The notes under the pieces: model-generated
Told to the model about the DNA's origin: nothing
The model's database searches: none
The model's input: the letters and a program-made list of their open reading frames with translations, nothing else
Position numbers and translations under genes: made by a program
Part shown: positions 8,067 to 21,558 of the stretch, one piece after another
How positions within the stretch are numbered: the first letter of the stretch is position 1
Layout of the letters: every line of letters begins with the position of its first letter
Assembly: GCF_000443995.1 (NCBI RefSeq)
Contig: NZ_AUMC01000010.1
Coordinates: forward strand, 868,001-932,000
Direction of reading: 5' to 3'
Length of the DNA stretch: 64,000 bases
Source of the DNA: Bacteriovorax sp. BAL6_X
Lineage (GTDB): Bacteria > Bdellovibrionota > Bacteriovoracia > Bacteriovoracales > Bacteriovoracaceae

Positions 8067-8095
8067 AAAAAAGGGACCTTATAAGGTCCCTTTTT
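8065..8095. terminator. Bidirectional terminator
   Basis: AAGGGACCTT / AAGGTCCCTT, a perfect 10-bp stem with a 2-base loop, flanked by an A-run on the left and T5 on the right. It serves both the response regulator and the convergent oxygenase gene, and forms the left edge of the biosynthetic cluster. Confidence 0.93.
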
Positions 8096-8102
8096 AATTT
8101 GG

Positions 8103-9116
8103 CTAGTTTAGGATTGTCGAATGCGTACCTCGTACGTATCGATTTTTTCCTAGGTGATCTTCCTTGCTTTCTTCAAGCAACAGATCCCAGAAACCATCCA
8201 TCTCATTATATTTGGCCAGTAGCTCATATGTACGGCCAAGCCCCTGCCTCGAAAAGGCACTTCGTTGGAATTCTACATTCGTACGAAGTGATTCAAATTC
8301 GCTTTTTAATTGATTAACAGTTTCCTGTGAAAGATCACTGAACTCTTCTTGCATTAGTTCTAAAATTCTTCCAGCAAGTCTCTTAGGTCCAAAGTATGAT
8401 GAAATGAACTTAACAAAGACGCTGGCATTAATCTTTCTAAGGATTGGATTGGCCTTGTCGTAGAAAGACGCAAGGAAGCATTCGTCAATTTGTTGGTGTC
8501 TAACTTCATCAAGCATATGATAGTAGTGACATTGCCAAAAGTTCCAGTCTACATCACCGGCCTTAAGTGCCTTATTATATTTTTTAGAGATATCTAATGT
8601 CCTCTCTTCAAAGAATAGGGCAATCCAAATCCACCATAAAAAGATATTTGGAAATGTTGTGACAACTTTCATAATGAAGTTTTGCACAGGACTTAGTTTA
8701 AAAATTCGTAAAGGGTTCTCTTTTGAATAATTTTCTGGTTCGGCCTTCATAAGCATTCTTAGAAAAATTTCACCGTGCTTATCCTCTTCTTCCATAAAGT
8801 GATCAATGGCCTCTGTCATTTGAGGATTTAGCTTATAAATTCTTTTACAGCTTCTTAGGGCCGGATTTAGAAGAACGTTTTCAAACCAAATGAATTGCTC
8901 GCAAATAGAAAGTCCAATCAATTGGTTGAATCTAAGTTTTTGGGCCTCTGTAAGTAAGTCATAACTTGGAAGGTAAGAGATAGTCACCATTTCATCTGGT
9001 GTCCACTTAAGCTTCTTATCTATTGGTTTTGACCAATCGAGTGCTTCAACAGTGAAGGCGCGATCGACAGATTGTTTATTAAGTTTCTCTAATTTGCTAA
9101 TAAGTCTCGATTCCAT
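8103..9116 (-). CDS. AurF-type diiron oxygenase
   Basis: A 337-residue helical protein of the AurF (p-aminobenzoate N-oxygenase)/diiron oxygenase family. Ligand pattern: a Glu at 73 or 79 (EQFIWFE), E111-x-x-H114 (EEEDKHGE), Glu at 170/171 (FFEERTLD), then H200, E204 and H207 in YYHMLDEVRHQQ. The H-x3-E-x2-H arrangement with its extra histidine is the AurF type and separates it from ferritins and fatty-acid desaturases. Known members oxidise amines to nitro groups or hydroxylate carrier-bound substrates. It is the last gene of an operon with ACP, acyl-AMP ligase and the reductase/kinase fusion, so an acyl-ACP or an amine attached to it is the likely substrate (inference). The start follows 11 bases after the ACP gene. 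Confidence 0.82.
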   Translation of the reverse strand: MESRLISKLEKLNKQSVDRAFTVEALDWSKPIDKKLKWTPDEMVTISYLPSYDLLTEAQKLRFNQLIGLSICEQFIWFENVLLNPALRSCKRIYKLNPQMTEAIDHFMEEEDKHGEIFLRMLMKAEPENYSKENPLRIFKLSPVQNFIMKVVTTFPNIFLWWIWIALFFEERTLDISKKYNKALKAGDVDWNFWQCHYYHMLDEVRHQQIDECFLASFYDKANPILRKINASVFVKFISSYFGPKRLAGRILELMQEEFSDLSQETVNQLKSEFESLRTNVEFQRSAFSRQGLGRTYELLAKYNEMDGFWDLLLEESKEDHLGKNRYVRGTHSTILN

Positions 9117-9127
9117 CTTAGCTCCAA

Positions 9128-9397
9128 TTATGAAATTACTTTCTTTAGTTCTTCATTAAAATTTTTTTCTAAGTAATTAATTAAATCCTGCGTTGTTTGG
9201 CATTGTAAAAAGATTGTAACAGGCAGCTCTTCGAAGTCTTCTTTTAAACGGCCAACAAAAGACATGGCATCATATGAGTCAAGGCCAAGTGTAATAAAGC
9301 TTGTTTCAAGATTCAGTGTGATTTCTTTTTCATCACTGATTTCTGCAATTATTTCATTTAGATATTTTAAAATTCTCTCATTCATAGCAGTATCCAA
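9128..9397 (-). CDS. Acyl carrier protein
   Basis: An 89-residue acidic four-helix carrier protein. The phosphopantetheine attachment site is Ser41 in GLDSYDAMSF (38-47), the usual (L/G)(G/x)xDS motif. It begins one base after the stop of the acyl-AMP ligase gene, which should load it. An alternative ATG four codons downstream also exists. As a dedicated ACP separate from fatty-acid synthase genes, it marks this locus as a carrier-based biosynthetic cluster. Confidence 0.93.
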   Translation of the reverse strand: MDTAMNERILKYLNEIIAEISDEKEITLNLETSFITLGLDSYDAMSFVGRLKEDFEELPVTIFLQCQTTQDLINYLEKNFNEELKKVIS

Positions 9398-9398
9398 G

Positions 9399-11015
9399 TT
9401 ATCCCAATTTCTCTTTAATTAAGAAATTAAACTTAAATTTATTTTTTATGTATCGAGATACTATAAGATTAAATCGATAATTTTTCTCGATTTTTGTAAT
9501 TTCTCCGGCCATGTATCTTTTTTGAGCACTTTGACGCTTTACCTTCCCACTTGTCGTTTTCTTAAGGGTTAATTCTGGCACGATCGAGATATTGTCTTCT
9601 GATAGGGAAATCTTTGACTTAAGTGCATTAACGACGTCTTGTTTAACTCTCTTACGGGCCTCTTTTGACTTCTCATTAAGCTCAATGATGAGATGTGGTA
9701 GCTCGCTCTTATCCGTTTGGATAGAGAAGGCAACCATGCGGCCAAGCTTTACCGCTGGAACTTTGGCGGCCAAAAATTCGAGGTCATTGGCAAAGATATT
9801 TACACCGTTACAAATGATCAGATCTTTGCTTCTTCCTGTTACGTAGAGCTTACCTTCTTTATCGAGGAAGCCTAGGTCTCCTGTGTTTAGCCATCCATTT
9901 TCAAGATGTGATTTTCTTCCAAAGTAGTGAGTTGAAATTGATGGCCCTTTTATATAGATTTCTCCAATACCTTGGTCTTGATTTCTTATCTCTAGCTGAG
10001 TAGGAGAAAGGACCTTCCCACATGAAATAAATTCTTCATTCTTAAGCGTTAATGTTTCAAACTTAGTTCCTACTTCATGAAATGTAACAGCAAGAGTTGC
10101 TTCTGCTAATCCATAAACAGGCATAATAGCGTTTGCACTGAAACCGTATTTTTCAAAACGTTTACTAAACGCTTTTAAAACGTTGGCCTTAATTGGCTCG
10201 GCCCCACATTGAGCGAAACGAATATGTGAAAGGTCGAGTCCTTGTAATTTCTTTTCAGGGATTTTAGTCGCACAAACATAGTAGGCCGAATTAGGAATAC
10301 AAAGGGCACTACACTTTGTTTCAGATACTAAGTGAAGCCATTTGTGAGGTGCTATCACGTAATCCTGAGTACGAATAATATGACATTCTAAATTCTTTAA
10401 GAGAGCAGTTAGAAGACTTCCAATTAGCCCCATGTCATGATGAAGTGGAAGCCAAGTACATATTGAATCAGATTCTCTAAGTTTGATCCCTTGATTAATT
10501 TGATCATTATTTGCTAGTAGGTTGCTATGACTGATAACAACCCCTTTAGGGGACGAAGTTGAACCTGAAGAAAATTGGATAAAACAAGTTTCTCTGCTTT
10601 CTGGATTAGCAAATTGTGCTGCCATTTCAACGTCGTTAAACTTTGCTATATTTGTAAATCCCTCTGGAGAGTTCTTTGCTGCGATATACTTCGTTTGTGC
10701 TGCTGAAGAGAATTGGAATAGTAACTCTTGATAATCATCTTTTAGCATTAGGGCATTTGAAGCCATTGGTACTGGTACATTTCCTGAAAGAATAATACCA
10801 AAGAAATATGTCACAAAGTTTTCTTCATTTTCAAATGAAAGAATTATATTACTATCCGTGATCTCATTTGCTTTAATTTTTGAAGCAATTAGGCGGGCCT
10901 TCTCCATAAGCTCATTGATAGAAAGAGTGCTAACAAGCTTAAAGTTCTTGTAAAAGAAGAGAACCTTCTTTTCTAGATCTTTATTTGAAAGTAGCTTGTC
11001 AATTAGGTTAGTCAT
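9399..11015 (-). CDS. Fatty-acyl-AMP ligase (FAAL-like)
   Basis: A 538-residue ANL-superfamily adenylating enzyme. Visible: the P-loop motif FIQFSSGSTSSPKGVVISH (145-163), the FAAL-typical WLPLHHDMGLIG (188-199), VYGLAEATLAV, the GWLNTGDLGFL segment and GRSKDLIICNGVN near residue 400. FAALs activate fatty acids as acyl-AMP and pass them to an ACP rather than to CoA; the adjacent ACP gene supports this. The FAAL-specific insertion cannot be judged without an alignment. Its ATG lies inside the end of the reductase/kinase gene (8-base overlap), indicating coupled translation. Confidence 0.88.
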   Translation of the reverse strand: MTNLIDKLLSNKDLEKKVLFFYKNFKLVSTLSINELMEKARLIASKIKANEITDSNIILSFENEENFVTYFFGIILSGNVPVPMASNALMLKDDYQELLFQFSSAAQTKYIAAKNSPEGFTNIAKFNDVEMAAQFANPESRETCFIQFSSGSTSSPKGVVISHSNLLANNDQINQGIKLRESDSICTWLPLHHDMGLIGSLLTALLKNLECHIIRTQDYVIAPHKWLHLVSETKCSALCIPNSAYYVCATKIPEKKLQGLDLSHIRFAQCGAEPIKANVLKAFSKRFEKYGFSANAIMPVYGLAEATLAVTFHEVGTKFETLTLKNEEFISCGKVLSPTQLEIRNQDQGIGEIYIKGPSISTHYFGRKSHLENGWLNTGDLGFLDKEGKLYVTGRSKDLIICNGVNIFANDLEFLAAKVPAVKLGRMVAFSIQTDKSELPHLIIELNEKSKEARKRVKQDVVNALKSKISLSEDNISIVPELTLKKTTSGKVKRQSAQKRYMAGEITKIEKNYRFNLIVSRYIKNKFKFNFLIKEKLG

Positions 11016-13353
11016 TCAGTTGACCTTCTAAGTAAGCAATTATCTCAAGTGTCTTATTAAAGATATGTGGCATGAATTCATATTCATTTACACTATGACC
11101 TACATAGTAGAATAGAACACGGTTAAGAAGATATTCATTTGCACATGAAAGCATATTTTCTAATTTTTCTTCTCTAGTTAGTTCTAGGCCATCTTTTGCG
11201 AAGTAGTATTCGATATCACTTGCGATCTCTCCGCTTGGCGTTGTGAAACTCATGAACTCAACTAAGTCTCTGTATGGAGAGTTAAAGCGTGATAACTCCC
11301 AATCATAGAAGCATGGACGCCCATTCTTGAAGCAAATATTCCTTGGATTAAAGTCATTGTGAGTTAGCGTTTTAGGGCCCTCATTGATGACTTTTGCCCA
11401 TTGTTCTACGTTATCTAGAACTTCTTCTAATTTCTCTTCTGTTTTTGCACTAATATAGTTTTGTGCACGAATATAAGTGATAATCGATTTAGATAAATCC
11501 TTATCAATATTTACTTTACCTAGGTTTAGTGAAGATTCAGCTACTTCTTGTGAATTTGCAAAGCCCTTGTGTATTTTTGATATTGCATCGTAGATTAACT
11601 CACGCGTTGAACTAATCCAAAGCTCTAAGCTTCCTTGAGTATTCATGAGTTCAATTTGTGAGAAGTTTAGATTTTCAAGAAGAAGTAAATATGCTTCTTT
11701 TTGAACATTTACATATGTACCATGAAGCTCTGGCATATAGCGTGCGTAGTTCTTTGAAACCATACGGTATGCTTCAATTTCTCTAATATGACATTTTGTA
11801 AATTCATTATTATGAATTGTTTTGATAAATTTTCTTCTGATATCACTATCGGCAAAACCTGCGATAGCTGCAAAACCTGCTATTACATCAGTATCTAGAG
11901 GCTTAGACTTAAGTATAATCTTGTCTTCTTTATTTATTTCTAATGAAGTAAATCCTAGTGATTTATTGACCACTCGAGATGTTGCTTCTGTGATAATACC
12001 ATTTTCGATATTGATCTTATGATCGTGCTCTATTGATGTACTTTCCTTTACAAGCGCCGACTGATCAGTGAAGTTTTCATTGATAAACTCTTTAGTAATG
12101 TCTTTTGTCTTAAGTTGATCTTTTGGATTATTTCTTCCTAGCTTATCGTGAGCATAAGCAAATTGTCCTCCACAGATGGCCGACATTGTAGAAAGCTCTA
12201 GTGAAAGGGCGGCTCCAGCTATAATTTTTGCGAACCTCTCAACTTTTCCGGCACCAGAACAACCAATCGATTTTAGGCAATCTTTATAATGGCCAAGGCC
12301 TGTTCCTCCACCAACTGTTCCAATTACTAGTGAAGGTAGGGTTAAGCTTACATATAAACCTTTTTCATGTTTTTCAAAATTTAAAACTGCTGTTGAAGAT
12401 TCATGAATACAGGCAAGGTCCTGTCCAGTTGAAGCAAAAATGGCAGCAACAGCATTGGCCACGTTTACGTTATATCCTGTCATACCTTCAAGGCGTGTGA
12501 TAGGAAGAGATCTAAGGTATAAATTGACTAGGTCTGTACTTGAAGTTTTTAAGATACGTTTTAAAACTTTCTCAGTAATTACACACTCTGCAGTTACATA
12601 AGTTCCACGAGTCTGCATGGCAGATCCAACTGAAACTTTCTTATCACTTGAACCATTTCCTTCAAGAAAGAATTCCACTAGTTTAATTTTGGATGTTAAT
12701 AGTTCTTCTTTGATCCACAAACATGACTGCCATGTACAAACAGTTGTCATATTTTGACCAGAGGCATCCGCGCACTCATAAATAAATTTAGCATGAACGT
12801 TACGGCCAATAAGAACTGGTTTAATCTTTTTAAGATCAGCAAAGTTTGAATACTTCTTAGTTATACTCTTAATCGTATCGAAATTATCTTCTAGCCATGA
12901 GATAAATTCATCAGCATGGTCAATATCATCAAATGTAAATACAGGGGCACGGTACATTCTCTTTCTTAATACTTTTGCCTTAAATCCACCACATAGTGAA
13001 ACAGCAAGTGCACCACGAGTGATAGAGGATACTAGTGCTCCTTCAGATGTTGCAATTGGAATATAAAGATCTTCTTTTTCACCTTTTTCATTAATTTTTA
13101 AAGGTCCACAAATTCCCATTGGAATGGAAATACTTCCAGCATAAGATTCGATATTACCCTTGAGGTTTAATCCATCTAAGTCCGTTTCTTGAATTGAATC
13201 GAGGTTCTCTCCGCACTGGGCCTCTAGAATCGCAATACGATTTAGTCTTGCTGCCTCAGAGTAGTCAAAACGAGATGGGGCCGAAAGCTTCTGCTTGACG
13301 ACTTTTGCTTCCTGCTCAGAAGCTGAATCTGTGTGTGTTTCATTGATCTTCAT
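11008..13353 (-). CDS. HMG-CoA-reductase-like domain fused to an APH/choline-kinase-like domain
   Basis: A 781-residue two-domain protein. Residues about 28-410 align by eye with class I HMG-CoA reductases: GNIESYAGSISIPMGICGPL (66-85), ATSEGALVSSITRG (101-114, catalytic Glu104), DASGQNM (196-202), SDKK (236-239), TGQDLACIHESS (309-320, catalytic Asp312), GTVGGGTGLG (345-354) and His402 as the C-terminal acid/base. The lysine that follows the DAMGMNM-type motif in true reductases is Val205 here. Residues about 515-781 are an aminoglycoside phosphotransferase/choline kinase fold: hinge LLLLENL (556-562), catalytic loop HNDFNPRN (665-672) and metal-binding YDWE (683-686). Such a fusion could reduce a thioester and phosphorylate the alcohol formed (inference). 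First gene of the operon; the ATG has no Shine-Dalgarno and a TATATT box sits 6 bases before it. No other mevalonate-pathway gene is present. Confidence 0.85.
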   Translation of the reverse strand: MKINETHTDSASEQEAKVVKQKLSAPSRFDYSEAARLNRIAILEAQCGENLDSIQETDLDGLNLKGNIESYAGSISIPMGICGPLKINEKGEKEDLYIPIATSEGALVSSITRGALAVSLCGGFKAKVLRKRMYRAPVFTFDDIDHADEFISWLEDNFDTIKSITKKYSNFADLKKIKPVLIGRNVHAKFIYECADASGQNMTTVCTWQSCLWIKEELLTSKIKLVEFFLEGNGSSDKKVSVGSAMQTRGTYVTAECVITEKVLKRILKTSSTDLVNLYLRSLPITRLEGMTGYNVNVANAVAAIFASTGQDLACIHESSTAVLNFEKHEKGLYVSLTLPSLVIGTVGGGTGLGHYKDCLKSIGCSGAGKVERFAKIIAGAALSLELSTMSAICGGQFAYAHDKLGRNNPKDQLKTKDITKEFINENFTDQSALVKESTSIEHDHKINIENGIITEATSRVVNKSLGFTSLEINKEDKIILKSKPLDTDVIAGFAAIAGFADSDIRRKFIKTIHNNEFTKCHIREIEAYRMVSKNYARYMPELHGTYVNVQKEAYLLLLENLNFSQIELMNTQGSLELWISSTRELIYDAISKIHKGFANSQEVAESSLNLGKVNIDKDLSKSIITYIRAQNYISAKTEEKLEEVLDNVEQWAKVINEGPKTLTHNDFNPRNICFKNGRPCFYDWELSRFNSPYRDLVEFMSFTTPSGEIASDIEYYFAKDGLELTREEKLENMLSCANEYLLNRVLFYYVGHSVNEYEFMPHIFNKTLEIIAYLEGQLND

Positions 13354-13410
13354 AGTTCAAATATAGCTTATAAAGATGAACGAGAACGTTTTATTGAAAA
13401 TTGTACTATG

Positions 13411-13431
13411 GCCGTCTACTGTGTAGACGGC
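13411..13431. promoter_or_regulatory. Hairpin between cluster operons
   Basis: GCCGTCTAC-TGT-GTAGACGGC, a perfect 9-bp stem with a triloop, 27 bases beyond the stop of the acetyltransferase gene and 58 bases before the reductase/kinase start (both minus strand). There is no adjacent T-run, so it may be a weak terminator, an mRNA-stabilising structure or an operator for the downstream operon. Confidence 0.5.
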
Positions 13432-13457
13432 ATATAAATTACTGTGAAATCAGGTAC

Positions 13458-14378
13458 TTAGATGTTGAAAAGGTGATAGTATCGAGTCTTCTGAGAAATG
13501 TCTTTCGCAAATAGTGAAGGAAGGTTCCCATCTCGCATTAGGCATAGGTAGGCCTGGTCATATTGAGATCGAACCTGTGGGATGATCTGCTTAAGTAGGT
13601 AGATAAAGCTTAGGCCCATATGGCGATGATCTGGATGGACTCCCATGGTCTTAATAAGCAGCCTCTTTGTATTGAGCGCTGTGGGGTCCACAAAGTTTAA
13701 GATGATACCAATTATTGAATTATCTTCTTTTGAAATTAGAGCACGAGAGGTGTGAGGGCAAATTAAAGTAGCGGCCTGGGCGCCATACTTAAGCTTGAAT
13801 GTCTCAAAAGAAATTGATGAGTAGGCGATATTCTCTCCAAAGACTTGATCTGCACTTTTATAAAATCGTTCAAGATTATCTAACCAAAATTGGCCGTTGA
13901 TCACTTTAAGTTCATAATTATGAGTCATGGCCGAGTCATCGATTTCAGCAAATTGCTCAGACCATTTTAAGAGCTTATCAAAGTCATTAATCTCATAAGT
14001 TACATATCTCTCAAAGACTTCTCCGTTAGCATTTAGTAGATCGTAGAGGCCCTTATCATATGGCGGCTCCATTAAGTGATGAGGAAGGTCTTCGTTTTGT
14101 TTAAGTCGATAGGTATTATAAGTTGAAAAATTAAGGGGACCGACTATTTTATCGATACCATGTTCACAGCGATATGCTTTTGCTGCTTTTATAAAGCTAT
14201 CTGATAAATCTCCAGAGCAGAAGCCAAAGTAGGCTTCAATACCTATAAGAAAGAAAATTGCCGAAGCTTTGCCATCAACAAATTGCTCAATACATGAGAT
14301 TGCTTCGTTATCTTTAAAAAGAAGAAACTCTTGTTTCTGTTCCTGTGTAAGTAGGTCTAAATTAATTTGCATAAACAC
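13458..14378 (-). CDS. GNAT-family acetyltransferase
   Basis: A 306-residue protein. The C-terminal part carries the acetyl-CoA binding motif A of GNAT enzymes, MGVHPDHRHMGLSFIYLL (about 242-259), of the form (R/Q)xxGx(G/A) with the first Gly position varied. The N-terminal half contains KIVGPLNFST and a PPY segment that resemble the long YghO-like GNAT proteins. In the cluster it could N-acylate an amino group, for example the 3-amino-3-carboxypropyl group that the neighbouring DUF3419 enzyme would add (inference). It overlaps the end of the UbiA-like gene by 17 bases and is co-transcribed with it. ATG 14372 is a close alternative start. Confidence 0.7.
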   Translation of the reverse strand: MFMQINLDLLTQEQKQEFLLFKDNEAISCIEQFVDGKASAIFFLIGIEAYFGFCSGDLSDSFIKAAKAYRCEHGIDKIVGPLNFSTYNTYRLKQNEDLPHHLMEPPYDKGLYDLLNANGEVFERYVTYEINDFDKLLKWSEQFAEIDDSAMTHNYELKVINGQFWLDNLERFYKSADQVFGENIAYSSISFETFKLKYGAQAATLICPHTSRALISKEDNSIIGIILNFVDPTALNTKRLLIKTMGVHPDHRHMGLSFIYLLKQIIPQVRSQYDQAYLCLMRDGNLPSLFAKDISQKTRYYHLFNI

Positions 14379-15297
14379 CTACTATAAGAGCGATATAAAG
14401 TAGGAGAGCAAAGAGTCCAAATGATTTTTCGTTCTTCTTGCGTCCATCTAGGCTTGGTTTTTTAAGGTATTTAAAAAGAGTTGATTGTGCCGCTGCAAAA
14501 CCAGCAATTCCCATGGCCGCTAAGATTGAGCGTAAGTTTGGCATAAGTGGAATTAGATAGAGGAAGCAGCCTAGAGTTATCATATTCATAAGCGTGATAA
14601 TTAGAACACTGCCACCAGCTCCATAAATTTTTGTATATGAATCAAGAGTTTCAGTTTCCTCTTCTGGCCCTCTCGTCTTTCTTGTGAACTCATATGAAAA
14701 GCCTGAAGCAAATGCCATGGCGAGAATTAGATATACGTAGAATTCAAATGTTGGAACTTGCCATTTTGCTGACATAATCCAAATAATGATTAAGGGAGAG
14801 ACTAACATATGGCTAATCGAGTAGAGTGTTAAGCGCTTTTCTAGCCAAGTGCCAATAAAGAACTCCTTGGCCATAAGAACTGACCATAAGTAAACGGCTC
14901 CATAACAAATGAGACTAAGATAGTTATTTGAAATTAAGAATGAATAACTTAGTCCAATAACCGTAAAAATTGCTGCAATAATATCGAGGTGCCAAAGTTT
15001 AATGAGACCTCTTTGAAGAGCACGCTCTGGGTGATTAATACAGTCAACTTTAAAGTCTTTATGTTCATCGAATACTCTTAGAACAAAGTAATGACCAACG
15101 ACAGCAATAGCTCCGAGGAAGTCCAAAGGAGTGAAGTCTAGTGCTTTATCTTGTAAGAAAAGCGCTAGGCGACTCATGACAAAGAAAGTAATAAGGCCAG
15201 AGATGACATTGGCCATTGGAAAACGCTCGTTTGACCATGCTAAATATCTCTTAATAAATGAATCTTCCATTGTAATATGACTTATATCTTTGCTCAT
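14362..15297 (-). CDS. UbiA-type prenyltransferase homologue
   Basis: A 311-residue integral membrane protein with about eight or nine hydrophobic helices. The first Asp-rich motif is RVFDEHKDFKVD (74-85; Asp77, Asp81, Asp85), equivalent to NDxxDxxxD, followed by HPERALQRGLI as in UbiA enzymes. The second motif region reads YEFTRKTRGPEEETETLDSY (about 204-223), where the usual DxxxD is partly replaced. UbiA enzymes move isoprenoid diphosphate chains onto aromatic or glycerol acceptors in the membrane. Here it may attach a prenyl or similar chain to the cluster product. The start has GAGGA as Shine-Dalgarno and is divergent from the DUF3419 gene. Confidence 0.8.
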   Translation of the reverse strand: MSKDISHITMEDSFIKRYLAWSNERFPMANVISGLITFFVMSRLALFLQDKALDFTPLDFLGAIAVVGHYFVLRVFDEHKDFKVDCINHPERALQRGLIKLWHLDIIAAIFTVIGLSYSFLISNNYLSLICYGAVYLWSVLMAKEFFIGTWLEKRLTLYSISHMLVSPLIIIWIMSAKWQVPTFEFYVYLILAMAFASGFSYEFTRKTRGPEEETETLDSYTKIYGAGGSVLIITLMNMITLGCFLYLIPLMPNLRSILAAMGIAGFAAAQSTLFKYLKKPSLDGRKKNEKSFGLFALLLYIALIVGVYAN

Positions 15298-15333
15298 ACA
15301 TCCTCATTTGAATTTAATTTCTTTGTACCATTA

Positions 15334-15360
15334 TATAATGAAAACAACTATAATTGTGAC
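15334..15360 (+). promoter_or_regulatory. -10 boxes before the BtaA-like gene
   Basis: Two perfect TATAAT boxes lie at 15334-15339 and 15349-15354. The second is 6 bases before the ATG at 15361, which has no Shine-Dalgarno, so a leaderless mRNA is possible. No convincing -35 box is found at 16-18 bases for either one. Confidence 0.4.
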
Positions 15361-16398
15361 ATGGCAAAATATTTTACTGACAAATTAAATTACTCACTAG
15401 CAAATGAAGATATTGAGATGGAGTCTAAGGTTTGTAGAAAACTTTCTCCAAAAAGTATTGGTTCAATCTGTGGTGCGGGGCCTAGAGGCCTATATCTTGT
15501 AACACAAGATAACTCAAGACTTGACCTCTTTGATGTATCTGGTCTTCAGATAGAGTGGGCCCGAGCGTATGAGAAGGCCATCATTGCCCTAGATGAGGTT
15601 GATTTCTTAAGAGCTTATCACGATGATTGCGCAATCTTAAAAACTGTTGGAGCAAATGTCGGACTTAATGAATACTTTGAGGCCAATGAAATTGCGGCCC
15701 TTGCTGGTTCGTGGGAGAAAACGTTTATTACGTTTTCAAAGCTATGTCGCAAGATTCTTGGTCACCGAATTATTGATGCCCTTAAAAATTGTAAAACGAT
15801 TCAAGAACAACTCAATATTATGGATACAGTGAGCTTTAAGATAAAGTGGACTGTCGTATTATCGATTGTAGGAAATAAAGCTCTTATGAATTCTCTCTTA
15901 TATCGAGGTGATTTTATAAGAAAGAATATTCCTGAAAGCTATGTGAAATTTTATCGAAATCGTTTTGCTCGTTTATTTAAGAATAACCTTATTAAAGATA
16001 ATTTCTTCTTAAGCTTATGCTTTTTTGGAGAAGTTACTTTGACAAATACGCCTCTTCGTTGTCGAAACTTCTCAGAGCTTAAAGAGAGTATTGGATCAAC
16101 TCAAGTGAATTATCATATTGGTGATGTGGTTGCTGAACTTGCCAGTGGAAAGCACCAATTTGATTATTTTTCTTACTCAGATGTTCCTAGTTACTTTAAT
16201 GATGAACTAGGTCGGGACTTTCTTCAAAAGGCCAAGTCTTCAATTTCTATTGGTGGTGTGATCTGTGTTCGTTATTATCTACGTGTTCATTCGCCAAACT
16301 TAGAGAGTTTTGAAGATATCACAGCTGACTTCTCTGATCTTATTAAGAAAGAAAAAGTTGGGGTGTACGATATAAAATTTTATAAAAGAGTCTCATAA
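15361..16398 (+). CDS. BtaA-like (DUF3419) SAM-dependent transferase
   Basis: About 345 residues with the DUF3419/BtaA pattern: YSLANEDIEME near the N-terminus (the Y-x-x-x-x-E-D segment), SIGSICGAGPRGLYLV (SAM-binding loop), LFDVSGLQIEWARAYEKAI (the DLNPxQ-x-LLELK equivalent), LDEVDFLRAY, and a later FDYFSYSDVPSYF. BtaA moves the 3-amino-3-carboxypropyl group of SAM to diacylglycerol in betaine-lipid synthesis. The Asn-Pro of DLNPxQ is replaced by Ser-Gly, so donor chemistry or acceptor may differ. I chose ATG 15361 because an in-frame ATG at 15277 lies inside the divergent UbiA-like gene. No BtaB-type N-methyltransferase is adjacent. Confidence 0.68.
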   Translation: MAKYFTDKLNYSLANEDIEMESKVCRKLSPKSIGSICGAGPRGLYLVTQDNSRLDLFDVSGLQIEWARAYEKAIIALDEVDFLRAYHDDCAILKTVGANVGLNEYFEANEIAALAGSWEKTFITFSKLCRKILGHRIIDALKNCKTIQEQLNIMDTVSFKIKWTVVLSIVGNKALMNSLLYRGDFIRKNIPESYVKFYRNRFARLFKNNLIKDNFFLSLCFFGEVTLTNTPLRCRNFSELKESIGSTQVNYHIGDVVAELASGKHQFDYFSYSDVPSYFNDELGRDFLQKAKSSISIGGVICVRYYLRVHSPNLESFEDITADFSDLIKKEKVGVYDIKFYKRVS

Positions 16399-16400
16399 AT

Positions 16401-16425
16401 AAAGGCTTCCTCGGAAGCCTTTTTT
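16401..16425 (+). terminator. Rho-independent terminator
   Basis: AAAGGCTTCC-TC-GGAAGCCTTT followed by T. It separates the BtaA-like gene from the convergent dikinase gene, whose stop codon touches the T-run. Confidence 0.93.
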
Positions 16426-19099
16426 ATTCTTGGTTTTCTTGAAGTAGGTTAATTAAACCTTTTTCACAATCCATCTCGATCTCTTGCCCATTTTCAACAA
16501 TTTTTGTAATTCCTGGAACACCAACAATCGTTGGTATTTTAAGTTCTCTTGCGATAACCGCAGAGTGCGATAGTGTCGATCCTTTTTCTACGAGAAGTCC
16601 CTTAATTGATGGAAATAAAGGGGCCCAGCCTGGGTCAGTTCTTACCGTACAAAGAATCTTATCATTAACATCGATTCCATCATCTGGTTTAAAGAGTAGG
16701 GCGACTTCTCCTGTGATATGTCCTGGATAACATCCAATACCCTTAAGTGCACCATCGTGATCGAGATTTGTATTACCTTCATAGATAAATTTATTTCCCG
16801 CATGAACAAAGCCAAAAGTCTTAAAGTGATGACCAGGCTCTTCATCTTCATATGATTCATACTCAGACTTTCTTAAGCTAATTAGCTCTTTTAGACTTGT
16901 CTGTACAATGCGCCCATCTTTCAATTCTTCGATCTCGCCTAGAGTTAGAAAGAAGATATCTTCAGGTAAATTGATTAAGTTGAAGCTTGCTAGCTGATTT
17001 CCCATCTCACGGTATATTTGGCGTGAAATTCCAAAAGACTTAGTTCGTAGAAGCCTTGTGTTTTCTCTGTAGCGAATTGCCTTTCTGAGTTTTCTAAGGT
17101 CTTTATAAAAACGTTTTCTTGCAAATGATGAAAGCTTCTTTTTAACGAGAGGAGCTATTTTAGCTTCTTCTGACTCTCTAAGTTCAAGCTCATTTGCAAT
17201 AAAGCTTTCATAGCTTAGACTTTCTTTAATGACGTAGTTTTTTAGAATATTAATAAGAAAGTCTGGGTTTTCACGTAGAGTTAAACTTTCTAACTTAAGT
17301 TCACCAATTGTACGGTCACCATAATTATCAATATATTTCTGACATAGCTCAAAGATGGCCTTATTGTTAATATAGAAGAAGTCCATGACTTTTAAGTTTT
17401 CTAGTTTTAAGAATTGATCTTGAAAGCCCTGATCACACTTCTTGATTTCATCACTAATCTTTAGAAGTTCTTTTGTTGGCTGGGTACTGGCTATATCGTG
17501 CTCTCCAGATAATAAGTTACCAAGCGTGATATCGGCATTTTCAACCGCAAGTTTCTCCATCCAACGATACATCTTTCCATTCATCATCATAACGTAGAAG
17601 TCATTAATTAGTGGAGCATGCCACTTACTTGTGATTTTTTGATCAAGCTCTTCTGTTAGGTCATAGAGCTGTGTGAGATTTAGCCTATTAAGTTTTGAAA
17701 AATCAATGTCATCATAGACCTTATAAAAATCTGACATAAAGTCTGCAACAACTTTATCAATCTTAGAGAAGTACCACATTAGGCTGCCAAATGTTTTAAT
17801 CATTCCAGGTAACATCTTTAGTCTTTCGCAAAGAGAAAGATCCTTATCTTCTATGAAATCGACAGGGTCTGTAATTCCCATCATTTTTTCCATATCACCT
17901 TTTGATTGTTTAAAAGAGGGAAGTAGCAGAAGTCCTTTATACCATGATTGGATATTGTAGAAGACTCGTCCCTCGATAAGAGCAATCATATTCTTATGTC
18001 TTTTTTCATGCTTCTTTAATTCTTCTTCACTTAATCCTGTTAAGCCCAGAAGTTGGTGATAGACTTTGTAGTACATCTTAGAGGCATAAGAGAAAGTTAG
18101 GGGAGTCGTTACACCATTGAATGATTCCTGTATATTTGAATTATCAAAGACATTGGCAAACTCTTCTCTTTTATCCATTGGAAGAGAAGTGATATCTCTT
18201 GTTTGAACTATATAGATTTTCCCACCTTTGAAGCAAAACTCAATGTCTTGTGGTTTCTTCTTTAGTGCAAGGATACCAAGAGCGATCTCATTTAACTGGA
18301 TAATTTCAGCATGAGTTAAAACGCTTGAGTTTATATCACGACCAGTTACTTCGACTTTCTTAGTTGTCTTATTTTCGTAGTCTGCGACTATTTTAAAATC
18401 TTTTTCTCTAATTTCGTCTCTAATAATTCCGCTATCATTGATCGTGTATTCGTCAGTATTACACTCACCACTAACGACGCCTTCGCCTTGTCCATAATTT
18501 GCTGAAATTAGCATTTCGTCTCTATGGCCATTAATTGGGTTGGCCGTAAAGAGAACCCCTGATTTATCTGGATCGATCATCTCTTGTATGATGACGGCCA
18601 TCTTAGGTGTTGATTGGTGAATTTGATTCTTAAATCGATAAGTAAGAGCGGTAAGGGAAAAATTGCTTTTGAAGCAATTTCTTATAGCAGCTTCTATTCT
18701 TTCCCTCCCTTGAACATAGAGGAAGGATTCAAGTTGTCCAGCAAATGAAAATTGGCTACCATCTTCATCAGCAGCAGAACTTCTAATGGCATAATGAATA
18801 TCTGGATTGATTCTATTCATCACTTCATCAATAATTACAATTTCACATTTATTAATCTCATTGTGAATTTTTTCAATGAGCTCTTTGAGATCATCGATGT
18901 ACTCAAGTTGCGTGTACTGAGAAATTAGTTGTTTTAATACTTCGTTTTGGTCAACTAATGTTTGAAAGTAATCACTAGTAATGCAAAACCAATCAGGTGT
19001 ATTAACACGACATTTTTCAAGCTTAGCAAGGTTATAGGCCTTACCTCCAACTTGTGTTTTTGTTGTAAGAAGAGAATCAAATTTACTTAATAGATACAT
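16424..19099 (-). CDS. Rifampin-phosphotransferase-like ATP dikinase (PPDK/PEP-synthase family)
   Basis: An 891-residue protein with three regions. Residues 1-315 are the ATP-grasp domain of pyruvate phosphate dikinase/PEP synthase: VGGKAYNLAKL (17-27), AIRSSAADEDGSQFSFAGQ, SGVLFTANP and DIEFCFKGGKIYIVQTR. Residues about 320-780 are a helical domain without recognisable motif. Residues about 795-885 are the swivelling phosphohistidine domain with GSTLSHSAVIARELKIPTIVG and His845 as phosphoacceptor. The pyruvate-binding TIM barrel of PEP synthase is missing, so the order ATP-grasp, substrate domain, His domain matches rifampin phosphotransferases. Expected chemistry: ATP + acceptor-OH + water gives phosphorylated acceptor + AMP + Pi. 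In the cluster it may phosphorylate the product or confer self-protection (both inferred). Confidence 0.83.
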   Translation of the reverse strand: MYLLSKFDSLLTTKTQVGGKAYNLAKLEKCRVNTPDWFCITSDYFQTLVDQNEVLKQLISQYTQLEYIDDLKELIEKIHNEINKCEIVIIDEVMNRINPDIHYAIRSSAADEDGSQFSFAGQLESFLYVQGRERIEAAIRNCFKSNFSLTALTYRFKNQIHQSTPKMAVIIQEMIDPDKSGVLFTANPINGHRDEMLISANYGQGEGVVSGECNTDEYTINDSGIIRDEIREKDFKIVADYENKTTKKVEVTGRDINSSVLTHAEIIQLNEIALGILALKKKPQDIEFCFKGGKIYIVQTRDITSLPMDKREEFANVFDNSNIQESFNGVTTPLTFSYASKMYYKVYHQLLGLTGLSEEELKKHEKRHKNMIALIEGRVFYNIQSWYKGLLLLPSFKQSKGDMEKMMGITDPVDFIEDKDLSLCERLKMLPGMIKTFGSLMWYFSKIDKVVADFMSDFYKVYDDIDFSKLNRLNLTQLYDLTEELDQKITSKWHAPLINDFYVMMMNGKMYRWMEKLAVENADITLGNLLSGEHDIASTQPTKELLKISDEIKKCDQGFQDQFLKLENLKVMDFFYINNKAIFELCQKYIDNYGDRTIGELKLESLTLRENPDFLINILKNYVIKESLSYESFIANELELRESEEAKIAPLVKKKLSSFARKRFYKDLRKLRKAIRYRENTRLLRTKSFGISRQIYREMGNQLASFNLINLPEDIFFLTLGEIEELKDGRIVQTSLKELISLRKSEYESYEDEEPGHHFKTFGFVHAGNKFIYEGNTNLDHDGALKGIGCYPGHITGEVALLFKPDDGIDVNDKILCTVRTDPGWAPLFPSIKGLLVEKGSTLSHSAVIARELKIPTIVGVPGITKIVENGQEIEMDCEKGLINLLQENQE

Positions 19100-19118
19100 T
19101 TACTACCTAATATTACAA

Positions 19119-19147
19119 ATTATATTATTTTCATTTAATATTATCAT
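19119..19147 (-). promoter_or_regulatory. Probable promoter of the dikinase gene
   Basis: On the minus strand ATGATA (19147-19142) is followed after 17 bases by TATAAT (19124-19119). The predicted start is near 19112, giving a short leader with AGG before the ATG at 19099. The region is shared with the divergent adenylating-enzyme gene. Confidence 0.5.
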
Positions 19148-20716
19148 ATGAAAAAAATTGAAGATATAAGGCAAGAACTGGGTTATATCGGCGTACCAAT
19201 AAATGGCTGCCATTACCTCGACTCTCATTTTAGAAATAATTTAGAAAAGCGATGCTTAATATACCAAGATAAAGATCTGACTTACGGTGAGTTTATGTCA
19301 CAGGTTGGGGCCTGGATTTCGACTTTATCAGATGCTGGAATTAAGAGGGGTGATCGAATCATTGTTCTTATCCCTCTTCGTCTTGAACTCTATCAGATTA
19401 TGGTTGCCTTATTTTATATGGGAGCAGTTGTTGTCTCGATTGACTCGACTATGCCTAAGGAGAAACTTAAGCAGGTTATTGAAGATGCAAATGCTCAGGG
19501 GATTATCTCTGTTAAAGAGCTTTTAAAGTGGACTCCACTAGTTCCTGCTCTTTGGAAAATGAAGCGTTTTACGTACAATCAAGATTGTATCTTTGCCAAG
19601 TCTCTAACAAATATCAGGGCCAAAGATAATCTTAATTTCTCGCAAGTACCAATTGAGCAAGATGCACAAACTCTTATCTCCTTTACGACTGGCTCAACAG
19701 GAAAGCCAAAAGCGGCAAATAGAAGCCTTGATATCTTTCTTGCCCAAAAGATTGTTTCAGAATACTTCTGGCTACATCGAGAAAATGAAGTTGATATGCC
19801 ATTCTTTCCAACTCTTGTTCTACAAAATTTGGGACTTGGGATTACGACAATCTTTCCAGATATCGATTACCGAAAACTGTCAGAGTTTGATGCTGCAAAA
19901 GTAATTGATCAAATGAGTAAATATGGTGTGACGCGCTTTAGTGCCAATCCTATGATTATTAAGAGACTTGCAAATTATCTTGCTAAAAATAATATCAAGA
20001 TTTCAAGCCTGAGAAGTATCATTATTGGTGGTGCTGAAATTTCAACGAAGCATGCAAGTTTTGTAAAGGAACAATTTGAAAAAGTAAGTGAAGGTGTTGA
20101 AATTCATATTATCTACGGTTCAACTGAAGTTGAACCAATAAGTTTTGTACCAATTGATGAATATATCTCAAATAAAAAAACAGGACTTAAGCTAGGCCAT
20201 GTGATTGAAGTCTTAGACGTTAAAGTTGATAAAGTTACTAGTGGTTTTGACTTTCAAGAAGGTCTTAGCTGGGGGGAAATTTGTTTAAGTGGCCCTCATG
20301 TCATTAAGGAATATATCGATAACCATCCGGCCAATAAGACAACTAAGAGATGGGATGAGCATGGAAAGTTATGGCACTTAACTGGTGATGTTGGTTATAT
20401 CAGTGATGGACAGATTTATTTACTAGGAAGATTAAAGGATTGTTTGAGTGTTGATGGAAAGCTAGTTCCTACATTTCATTATGAAAATGAATTAACGCGA
20501 ATCGATGGCATTGAACGAGCTGCACTTGTGCAAGTTGGAAATAAGATTAAATGTCTTATCGAAGGCGAGGTAAAGATTAAAGATCATATTAGTGAAATTT
20601 TAAAAGATTGGAATTTAGCGAATGCAATTATTGAGTTTGGAAGAGTTCCTGTTGATTCGAGACATTTTTCACGCGTTGATCGCAATGCCATAAGAGAAGG
20701 TATCCAGCACAAATAA
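19148..20716 (+). CDS. OleC-like AMP-dependent ligase/synthetase
   Basis: A 522-residue ANL enzyme. The P-loop reads FTTGSTGKPKAANRS (about 178-192), the adenine-binding region IIYGSTEVEPIS resembles the YGATExLPVS of OleC, and LTGDVGYISDGQIYLLGRLKD contains the TGD motif and hinge. Near the C-terminus VPVDSRHFSRVDRNAI matches the xPVDxRHNxKxxR segment of OleC-type proteins. OleC makes beta-lactones from beta-hydroxy acids by adenylation; related proteins make acyl-AMP. It is the rightmost gene of the cluster, divergent from the dikinase across 48 bases, so it may be co-regulated. General adenylate-forming function is sure; beta-lactone formation is only a hypothesis. Confidence 0.8.
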   Translation: MKKIEDIRQELGYIGVPINGCHYLDSHFRNNLEKRCLIYQDKDLTYGEFMSQVGAWISTLSDAGIKRGDRIIVLIPLRLELYQIMVALFYMGAVVVSIDSTMPKEKLKQVIEDANAQGIISVKELLKWTPLVPALWKMKRFTYNQDCIFAKSLTNIRAKDNLNFSQVPIEQDAQTLISFTTGSTGKPKAANRSLDIFLAQKIVSEYFWLHRENEVDMPFFPTLVLQNLGLGITTIFPDIDYRKLSEFDAAKVIDQMSKYGVTRFSANPMIIKRLANYLAKNNIKISSLRSIIIGGAEISTKHASFVKEQFEKVSEGVEIHIIYGSTEVEPISFVPIDEYISNKKTGLKLGHVIEVLDVKVDKVTSGFDFQEGLSWGEICLSGPHVIKEYIDNHPANKTTKRWDEHGKLWHLTGDVGYISDGQIYLLGRLKDCLSVDGKLVPTFHYENELTRIDGIERAALVQVGNKIKCLIEGEVKIKDHISEILKDWNLANAIIEFGRVPVDSRHFSRVDRNAIREGIQHK

Positions 20717-20728
20717 TATGTGCTGGAT
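20702..20728. terminator. Hairpin containing a stop codon, putative terminator
   Basis: ATCCAGCACA / TGTGCTGGAT, a perfect 10-bp stem whose loop holds the TAA of the adenylating-enzyme gene. A T-rich stretch follows (TATGTGTTTTAG). It lies between convergent genes and marks the right edge of the cluster. Confidence 0.65.
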
Positions 20729-20736
20729 TATGTGTT

Positions 20737-21558
20737 TTAGTTTTCGTAATTTTGACAAAGTATTGAAATTTTCTTTGTTAGCTCTTTAGGCAGAGTAGAA
20801 AATAGGTTTGACCAGCTATTTACTTTATGACCATAGCATCTTTGCCAATGTGGAGTATAAAGCTGACCTTTATCTCTTAATAGGTATTCTTCCATATAGC
20901 TTTTTAAATGTAAGTCTTGAAGATCTTTTGAATCAGATCTTTCTAATACTTTTCTCTGATAGAGCGTGTCGGCAATTTCAAATGGTGTTATAAAACTTGC
21001 TTGACCCTTATAAAGCTTATTTGATTCATCAAAATTATATGCTGCTCTAATGAAAGTGTGGAATTTGATACCTGGGTAAGTTTGTTTTATACCATTGTAA
21101 AAAGAGTTATCGTGCTCTCCATTATCACCAACAAGAATAACAGTGTCTGGCCTGTGCTCAGAGATTAGCTCTTCAAGTCTTTGGGCCTTAAAGACCTTGC
21201 TGGAAACTTTTATGGGTCTAATTTCAAGGCTACCTTCTGGGAAATTTCCATTCTTAAGTAATTCTGTGTGTGACCATGCCATCACTTCTTCTGGTGCATT
21301 TGTTAGGTAGAATACATCTGCATCAAGGCGATTCTTTATAATACGGTAAAGATCGGCCATACCAAGGAAGATATTATTTGTGCGGTATGCATTCGAAACA
21401 GCATCAACTTTTGATCTGATATGTCCGACTTTGATTGTGTCATCGATATCTGAGATTAGAAGTGTTTTTCCACTATCTTTAGAAAAGGCCAGCGTTGCTG
21501 ATGCTAATAGGTTTAATGTAAGTACTAGGATTACAGATTTGAAGTTTCTTGTTTTCAT
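20737..21558 (-). CDS. App1-like phosphatidate phosphatase (HAD-type), exported
   Basis: A 273-residue protein with a signal peptide (about 1-25, ending in LAFS) and an APP1/DUF2183 domain. Motif I is SDIDDTIK with Asp37, Asp39 and Thr41 (DxDxT phosphatases); YLTNAPEE corresponds to motif II and VGDNGEHDNSFY to motif IV with metal-binding Asp. App1 proteins hydrolyse phosphatidate; export suggests action in the periplasm or on prey lipids, which is inference. The ATG has no Shine-Dalgarno and is preceded by a promoter placing the transcript start at the codon. It lies next to the lipid-related cluster, but in its own transcription unit. Confidence 0.8.
   Translation of the reverse strand: MKTRNFKSVILVLTLNLLASATLAFSKDSGKTLLISDIDDTIKVGHIRSKVDAVSNAYRTNNIFLGMADLYRIIKNRLDADVFYLTNAPEEVMAWSHTELLKNGNFPEGSLEIRPIKVSSKVFKAQRLEELISEHRPDTVILVGDNGEHDNSFYNGIKQTYPGIKFHTFIRAAYNFDESNKLYKGQASFITPFEIADTLYQRKVLERSDSKDLQDLHLKSYMEEYLLRDKGQLYTPHWQRCYGHKVNSWSNLFSTLPKELTKKISILCQNYEN

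Follow-up and report, generated by a model that had tools for sequence, protein, structure and literature searches.

HMG-CoA reductase (HMGR) is among the best-studied enzymes. The locus described here encodes a protein, HMGRK, with the fold of class I HMGR and its catalytic Glu, Lys, Asp and His. It differs from class I HMGR in carrying a fused kinase, in having Glu or Asp in place of a serine that contacts HMG, in the loss of the carboxylate lysine and, judging from genes rather than from activity, in standing outside isoprenoid supply. Other parts of the locus recall other described systems. With BtaA/BtaB betaine-lipid synthesis (PMC10685587) it shares a DUF3419 protein that would add the aminocarboxypropyl group of SAM to a lipid alcohol, but this protein is divergent, its gene is set among those of HMGRK, a UbiA transferase, an RPH-like dikinase and AMP ligases, and no BtaB-type methyltransferase was seen among the nine cluster genes. 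The OleABCD olefin pathway has an OleC-like AMP ligase in common with the locus, yet OleA, OleB and OleD are not among the nine proteins and OleC scores are below cut-off. The dikinase has the three-domain PEP-synthase architecture of rifampin phosphotransferase and PigC, including the swivelling His domain, but scores below the named-family cut-offs and is a constant partner of HMGRK and UbiA. Finally, PF01864 and PF01066 of the archaeal CarS/CDP-alcohol phosphotransferase pathway are common to operons related to this locus, though not to the locus itself, and these operons have no recognised isoprenoid ether genes alongside. We find it somewhat probable that the locus is a version of a widespread cluster family making a non-standard polar envelope lipid, built via a reduced, phosphorylated acyl alcohol and a head group.

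The cluster lies in the window, the whole stretch of 64,000 nucleotides that was analysed. An earlier sequence-only reading had described nine genes bounded by terminators, with tight junctions in the operon of AurF, ACP, FAAL and the fusion. All nine open reading frames and their junctions were confirmed with one corrected start, and terminator-like stems were found at both boundaries, with a third inside:

8068..8095, no strand: terminator-like stem of 12 pairs, cluster boundary (pattern match only)
8103..9116, minus: AurF-type diiron oxygenase (PF11583 51.2 bits, cut-off 29.6)
9128..9397, minus: stand-alone acyl carrier protein, ACP, with LGLDSYD (PF00550 46.3 bits)
9399..11015, minus: FAAL-like fatty acyl-AMP ligase (Pfam AMP-binding; 3pbk E=7e-69; NCBIfam PRK09192 374.7 bits, under the cut-off of 600)
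11008..13353, minus: HMGRK, class I HMGR-like thioester reductase with a homoserine-kinase/APH-fold kinase (PF00368 346.5 bits; PF01636, APH, 38.8 bits; AF2 model)
13458..14378, minus: GNAT-fold acyltransferase-like protein (model match to tandem GNATs; Pfam sub-threshold)
14362..15297, minus: UbiA-superfamily membrane transferase (PRK05951 98.9 bits, under cut-off)
15361..16398, plus: BtaA-like (DUF3419) protein, probable SAM aminocarboxypropyl transferase (PF11899 63.1 bits, cut-off 28.2; reading frame opens at 15277)
16401..16422, no strand: terminator-like stem between the BtaA and RPH genes (pattern match)
16424..19099, minus: RPH/PEP-synthase-like dikinase, catalytic His in STLSHSAVIAREL (PPDK_N, PF01326, 240 bits; PEP-utilizers, PF00391, 71 bits)
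19148..20716, plus: OleC-like AMP ligase of PRK09274 type (PF00501 139.5 bits)
20702..20728, no strand: terminator-like stem, cluster boundary (pattern match)
20737..21558, minus: neighbouring gene for a protein with an APP1 (phosphatidate phosphatase) catalytic domain and an apparent signal peptide (PF09949 87.5 bits)

From AurF to OleC in gene order, the junctions measure 11, 1, −8, 104, −17, −21, 25 and 48 bases, with the ACP gene 1 base from the FAAL-like gene. When started at 15277 the BtaA frame overlaps the UbiA gene by 21 bases; the ATG at 15361 is the more likely start because it better fits the alignment with relatives.

The nine genes are one version of a cluster family that recurs across several bacterial phyla. 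We used HMGRK as the marker of this family and obtained 272 relatives from one genome scan; the neighbourhood counts rest on the 80 that were kept, are unweighted for phylogeny and assess co-occurrence by searches. The sequence-only reading had asked whether five or more of its nine genes stay together in unrelated genomes. They do: 23 other loci, from several phyla, combine five or more of the families, and the grouping therefore goes beyond chance. Nearly all of these loci (21 of the 23) have the identical five: UbiA, the HMGR-kinase fusion, the RPH-like dikinase, GNAT and the OleC-like ligase. This core is common in Gammaproteobacteria and forms a single operon in Marinobacter, Thalassolituus, HdN1 and others of that class. 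HMGRK is found in lipid-type clusters of Marinobacter, Thalassolituus, Kordia (Bacteroidota), Myxococcota and Bdellovibrionota-type genomes, and also in Streptomyces, whereas in the window's own phylum no more than 11 of 369 genomes have it. That a predator uses the product for signalling or as an antimicrobial, as had been suggested, finds no support. Within the phylum, one relative (L046) repeats AurF-RPH-HMGRK-OleC with UbiA-GNAT, and another (G130) has eight of the nine families over two contigs, with BtaA-UbiA-GNAT contiguous. Viral contigs scanned for the fusion gave no relatives, and no description of the cluster was found in the literature searched, which left most subscription journals outside its scope.

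Two alternative head-group modules accompany HMGRK. One consists of CarS-like (PF01864) and CDP-alcohol transferase (PF01066) genes, which close the related operons; either or both are present in 53 of 89 distinct HMGRK loci, and in L109 both domains are fused with an AMP ligase in one protein. The other is the BtaA-like DUF3419 gene, present in five of the 89, window included. The two modules never meet in the same locus (0/89), a count to be read with only five BtaA loci and with loci that are not independent. The window protein, with 17-22% identity to other DUF3419 proteins (alignment A5), is a probable SAM aminocarboxypropyl transferase. Because its gene occupies the place taken in relatives by the CDP-lipid head-group genes, the evidence fits what the sequence-only reading had proposed, i.e. 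an unusual lipid or acyl-derived metabolite of non-standard class with a polar amino-acid-like group. Natural-product clusters also contain AurF enzymes, FAAL/ACP pairs and RPH-like ligases (relatives of PigC and RedH), and the distribution inside the phylum is patchy, so that one might think of a small molecule secreted as a signal or antimicrobial instead of a structural lipid. We consider this unlikely given that lipid-type head-group enzymes (CarS, CDP-alcohol transferase, DUF3419) recur beside HMGRK, as do PlsC and desaturases, and that the nine proteins hold no PKS or NRPS domain; the earlier remark to this effect was upheld by the absence of ketosynthase and condensation domains.

It is quite unlikely that the window is composite, with the five-gene core making one product and AurF-ACP-FAAL plus BtaA forming an adjacent but separate pathway. 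The gammaproteobacterial core does lack AurF, FAAL and ACP, and the window HMGRK groups in the tree with Bacteroidota-type sequences whereas the RPH, UbiA and GNAT proteins are closest to gammaproteobacterial ones. Yet loci from other families of the phylum (L045, L046, L048, L148 and L149) also have AurF next to RPH or HMGRK, and FAAL, which in the window is inside the HMGRK operon, lies near HMGRK in two relatives, and only two (L045 and L048). No ACP was detected in relatives when small open reading frames were screened by motif. The diiron-ligand motifs of AurF (E, ExxH, E, H..DExxH), at positions that we take to be those of AurF structures, are conserved in relatives wherever the sequence covers them; a PDB sequence search with this protein had no useful match. 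The FAAL-like protein has known fatty acyl-AMP ligases as its best solved relatives and a carrier protein as partner.

The AF2 model of HMGRK (pLDDT 86) matches human HMGR with a Z of 36.9, at 34% identity in the structural alignment, and homoserine kinase 2ppq with a Z of 18.9. HMGRK sequences form one clade (89/89, support 0.795) and keep the class I catalytic residues Glu559, Lys691, Asp767 and His866; retained among 90 aligned sequences are E559, R590, D690, K691, K692, D767 and H866 (E559 and R590 in 89, with one gap). With fold and catalytic residues intact, a kinase fused to the HMGR domain, and prenyl diphosphates the usual substrates of UbiA enzymes, HMGRK could be thought to make mevalonate and mevalonate 5-phosphate from HMG-CoA, as prenyl supply for UbiA and a prenylated product. 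This is very unlikely. The HMG carboxylate site is altered in all 90 sequences: the S684 position is Glu or Asp in 90/90 and the K735 position is variable. In HMGR both residues contact the HMG moiety, K735 through the carboxylate salt bridge (PMC9500038). The reductase domain has apparently lost HMG-CoA as a substrate, although Glu or Asp at S684 may still be compatible with HMG binding. The window genome (G000) has another, stand-alone HMGR, as do 11 of the 12 other genomes of its phylum checked, and DXR is missing from all 13. Conversely, DXR is present in six gammaproteobacterial HMGRK hosts and one Streptomyces, five of which have no HMGR-family protein besides HMGRK. Given the changed HMG contacts, the second HMGR in mevalonate users and the MEP route in the six Gammaproteobacteria, HMGRK is very probably not an isoprenoid enzyme. 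The remark of the sequence-only reading that there is no mevalonate gene holds for the cluster, since none other than HMGRK could be counted as one among the nine; more telling is that the HMGR domain itself seems to have left mevalonate metabolism. A distinct and widespread bacterial branch of HMGR appears to have changed its substrate pocket, in lipid-type clusters, which cautions against taking an HMGR match as a sign of a mevalonate pathway. Human, plant and archaeal HMGRs served as class I controls, after those of HdN1 and Fluviicoccus, both stand-alone, had turned out to be unorthodox, with Ala at the Ser684 position. No claim is made for a PilZ-like extension at the N-terminus of gammaproteobacterial and myxococcal HMGRKs, for which Pfam gave a score in a single case, below threshold.

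Also very unlikely is that bacteria use the cluster family to make ether lipids of archaeal type, in which case UbiA would play the part of DGGGP synthase ahead of CarS and CDP-alcohol transferase: UbiA, CarS-like and CDP-alcohol transferase genes do share one operon in relatives, and archaeal-lipid genes have been proposed for FCB bacteria (PMC7852524), but the scanned cluster proteins had no recognisable prenyl synthase, GGGP synthase or G1P dehydrogenase and include acyl-type enzymes instead (FAAL/ACP, AMP ligase, PlsC, desaturase).

For the polar envelope lipid that we favour, the following order of events can be envisaged. The FAAL-like ligase would activate a fatty acid and transfer it to the ACP, where the bound chain would be oxidised by the AurF-type enzyme. 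The HMGR-like domain, with its conserved catalytic residues and changed pocket, would draw on NAD(P)H to take some acyl thioester, though not HMG-CoA, all the way to a primary alcohol. The fused kinase, which has a kinase fold and catalytic motif, would presumably phosphorylate that alcohol. The OleC-like ligase, GNAT, UbiA and the RPH-like dikinase, all associated with HMGRK across phyla, would complete the lipid backbone. The head group would be the 3-amino-3-carboxypropyl of SAM here, added by the BtaA-like protein, and in most relatives a phospho-alcohol attached via the CarS-like cytidylyltransferase and the CDP-alcohol phosphotransferase. Many relatives carry an additional MMPL-family transporter, suggesting delivery across the envelope; the window cluster has no MMPL gene. 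As a general scheme, and tentatively, this could be a phylum-crossing pathway in which a repurposed HMGR reduces an acyl thioester and the same polypeptide phosphorylates the alcohol, so that a backbone arises without the usual glycerol-3-phosphate acylation and accepts interchangeable phospho or aminocarboxypropyl head groups. If the polar-lipid reading is right, well-known and culturable marine bacteria would have an unnoticed class of envelope lipids.

The remaining core proteins are less readily classified. UbiA was detected only by NCBIfam PRK05951 and PRK13592, both under cut-off. Its R74, D77, K80, D81, D85, R92, E203, R206 and K207 are invariant among 31 core homologues, the first Asp-rich motif being DExKD...D and the position of the second reading ExxRK. 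The idea that these metal motifs are peculiar to the core was dropped, DExKD and ExxRK being common to stand-alone UbiA proteins of the same phylum. The AF2 model of the GNAT protein matches tandem GNATs with a Z of about 14, while a PDB sequence search had no useful match; its homologues occur in the core operon of relatives. The OleC-like ligase scores 311.9 bits with PRK09274 and about 145 bits with OleC models, all sub-cut-off. In the RPH-like dikinase the ATP-grasp domain and the swivelling His domain are both present, and in an alignment with chain 5fbs, a PDB entry named phosphoenolpyruvate synthase, the catalytic His is conserved. The neighbouring APP1-domain gene is possibly linked to the cluster.

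The nine-gene grouping that the sequence-only reading proposed at 8103-20716 does exist, and its core recurs in distant bacteria. The nine reading frames have the coordinates first given to them, the BtaA-like (DUF3419) one probably starting at 15361 rather than 15277, and the junctions agree with the first description, measuring 11, 1, -8, 104, -17, -21, 25 and 48 bases. The family names are backed by Pfam and NCBIfam, with some qualifications. UbiA scores under all curated cut-offs, GNAT is sub-threshold by sequence score but has a predicted structure (mean pLDDT 70.6) that resembles tandem GNATs at Z about 14, and several NCBIfam matches, among them PRK09192, PRK09274 and the OleC models, fall under cut-off. 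Terminator-like stems lie at three positions:

8068-8095, terminator-like stem
16401-16422, terminator-like stem
20702-20728, terminator-like stem

Convergent with the OleC-like gene, a reverse-strand frame (20737-21558) encodes a protein with an apparent signal peptide and the catalytic domain of phosphatidate phosphatase APP1. This protein is a possible source of a dephosphorylated lipid acceptor.

Related clusters were sought with HMGRK, the fusion of a class I HMGR-like reductase and a kinase (11008-13353, reverse strand), as the tag. HMGRK occurs in 11 of 369 genomes of the window's phylum, with five taxonomic families represented, and was not found in the other members of the genus that were examined. 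When the genome collection was scanned with an 11-sequence alignment as query, 272 relatives appeared. Going by record titles, the best 80 (L049-L128) belong to Bacteroidota, Gammaproteobacteria, Oligoflexia/Deltaproteobacteria, Myxococcota, Streptomyces and further groups, many being metagenome bins. We clustered the neighbouring genes of 91 loci, the window included, and assigned families with profiles grown from every window protein. Besides the window, 23 loci have five or more of the nine families together, which answers the check proposed in the sequence-only reading in the affirmative. In 21 of these the same five are present: UbiA, HMGRK, RPH-like dikinase, GNAT and OleC-like ligase. 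In Gammaproteobacteria these core genes form a single operon, typically ordered MMPL-UbiA-HMGRK-RPH-GNAT-ligase, whose last genes encode a CDP-alcohol phosphotransferase and a CarS-like protein.

HMGRK is most unlikely to be the enzyme for isoprenoid supply. Besides it, the window genome encodes another HMGR, of 427 residues; stand-alone HMGRs are found in 11 of 12 other phylum genomes tested, and DXR, the marker of the MEP route, was found in none of these 13; in the incomplete genome G340, HMGRK is the sole HMGR-type protein seen. A second HMGR and no DXR is likewise the pattern in the other hosts tested, four from Bacteroidota and one from Myxococcota. DXR is present in all six gammaproteobacterial hosts tested and in one Streptomyces, and HMGRK is the only HMGR-family protein in five of these seven. 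Fluviicoccus and HdN1 have a second one, likewise unusual: these stand-alone HMGR-like proteins of MEP-using hosts (L158 4954-6123 and L159 5041-6237, both reverse strand) carry DAAGQNM, with Ala at the Ser684 position, and perhaps represent another non-mevalonate branch.

The AF2 model of HMGRK (mean pLDDT 86) superposes on human class I HMGR (Z 36.9, rmsd 1.7, 312 residues), and its C-terminal half on homoserine kinase 2ppq (Z 18.9); the kinase half has the motifs HND....N and DWE. In an alignment of 90 HMGRKs, catalytic Lys691, Asp767 and His866 are kept in all, as are Asp690 and Lys692, and Glu559 and Arg590 in 89, the remaining one being a gap. In place of Ser684, common to the human, plant and archaeal enzymes compared, the HMGRKs carry Glu (78) or Asp (12), and lysine is not conserved at position 735. 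According to PMC9500038, Ser684 and Lys735 both contact the HMG moiety, Lys735 through a salt bridge to its carboxylate. From these altered positions we therefore infer, a step beyond the residue comparison itself, that the substrate is not HMG-CoA. In L053, L073, L101, L118 and L119, 100-140 extra residues precede the HMGR domain, with a sub-threshold PilZ match in L053 and a PilZ-like RxxxR in L119; c-di-GMP control of these proteins is possible.

The guess of an unusual lipid or acyl metabolite with a polar group has partial support: we read the system as lipid biosynthesis with a repurposed enzyme, and found no support for a predator signalling or antimicrobial compound. Among 89 loci, two duplicates removed, a gene for a CarS-like protein or a CDP-alcohol phosphotransferase is present in 53 and DUF3419 in five; none has both, a mutual exclusion based on few, related loci. 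BtaA converts diacylglycerol and SAM to diacylglycerol-O-homoserine (PMC10685587). In the simplest reading, HMGRK supplies a lipid alcohol or its phosphate, which is then completed with either of two head-group types. Judging from the families, FAAL would load ACP, AurF would oxidise the bound chain, the HMGR-like domain would yield a primary alcohol, the fused kinase would phosphorylate it and BtaA would add the aminocarboxypropyl group. Direct support concerns gene content, conserved association, catalytic residues, the altered pocket and separation from isoprenoid supply; a backbone without glycerol is a possibility only, and the pathway as a whole has a fair chance of being new.

Of the four families outside the core, AurF has relatives in 13 of 369 phylum genomes, the stronger matches mostly at L045, L046, L048, L148 and L149; AurF lies at a contig end in L048 and adjoins RPH in the four others, each a different genome. 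FAAL is close to HMGRK in L045 and L048, DUF3419 shares a neighbourhood with HMGRK, UbiA or MMPL in L053, L079, L086 and L119, and no relative shows an ACP. G130 reaches eight of the nine families because DUF3419, UbiA and GNAT sit contiguously on a second contig (L151). The G004 copy (L032 7889-12966) looks decayed, an intact HMGRK standing beside a truncated AurF with an in-frame stop, a FAAL remnant, a short GNAT and a split OleC-like gene. In the tree, HMGRK is a single clade (89/89, support 0.795), where the window protein pairs with that of G004 and next groups among mainly Bacteroidota-type sequences, whereas the closest relatives of the window RPH, UbiA and GNAT are gammaproteobacterial; clusters hence seem to exchange parts.

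Bacteroidota and the window's phylum also share a second type of cluster, in which HMGRK-CarS-RPH is accompanied by genes for PlsC, a desaturase, a methyltransferase and a small membrane protein. Twelve loci, mostly of Flavobacteriaceae, have only HMGRK, CarS and CDP-alcohol transferase of the profiled families. At L109 a single protein contains the AMP ligase domain together with those of CDP-alcohol transferase and CarS, and CDP-alcohol transferase-CarS fusions occur elsewhere, e.g. in L114. L150 (G165:C8, 2203-13239) has AurF-like, two RPH-like, UbiA, GNAT-like and CarS-like genes, with no HMGRK match in the fetched stretch or the phylum search. A conserved protein of 523-573 residues, without Pfam match, adjoins HMGRK, RPH or AurF in some clusters from the window's phylum (L045 5310-6881, L048 5059-6630, L149 3073-4794). 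In a third neighbourhood type, RPH and NTP_transf_5 lie near HMGRK (L050, L065, L090, L093, L094, L104, L115, L121), and several of these loci also have an epimerase and P-loop proteins resembling thymidylate kinase.
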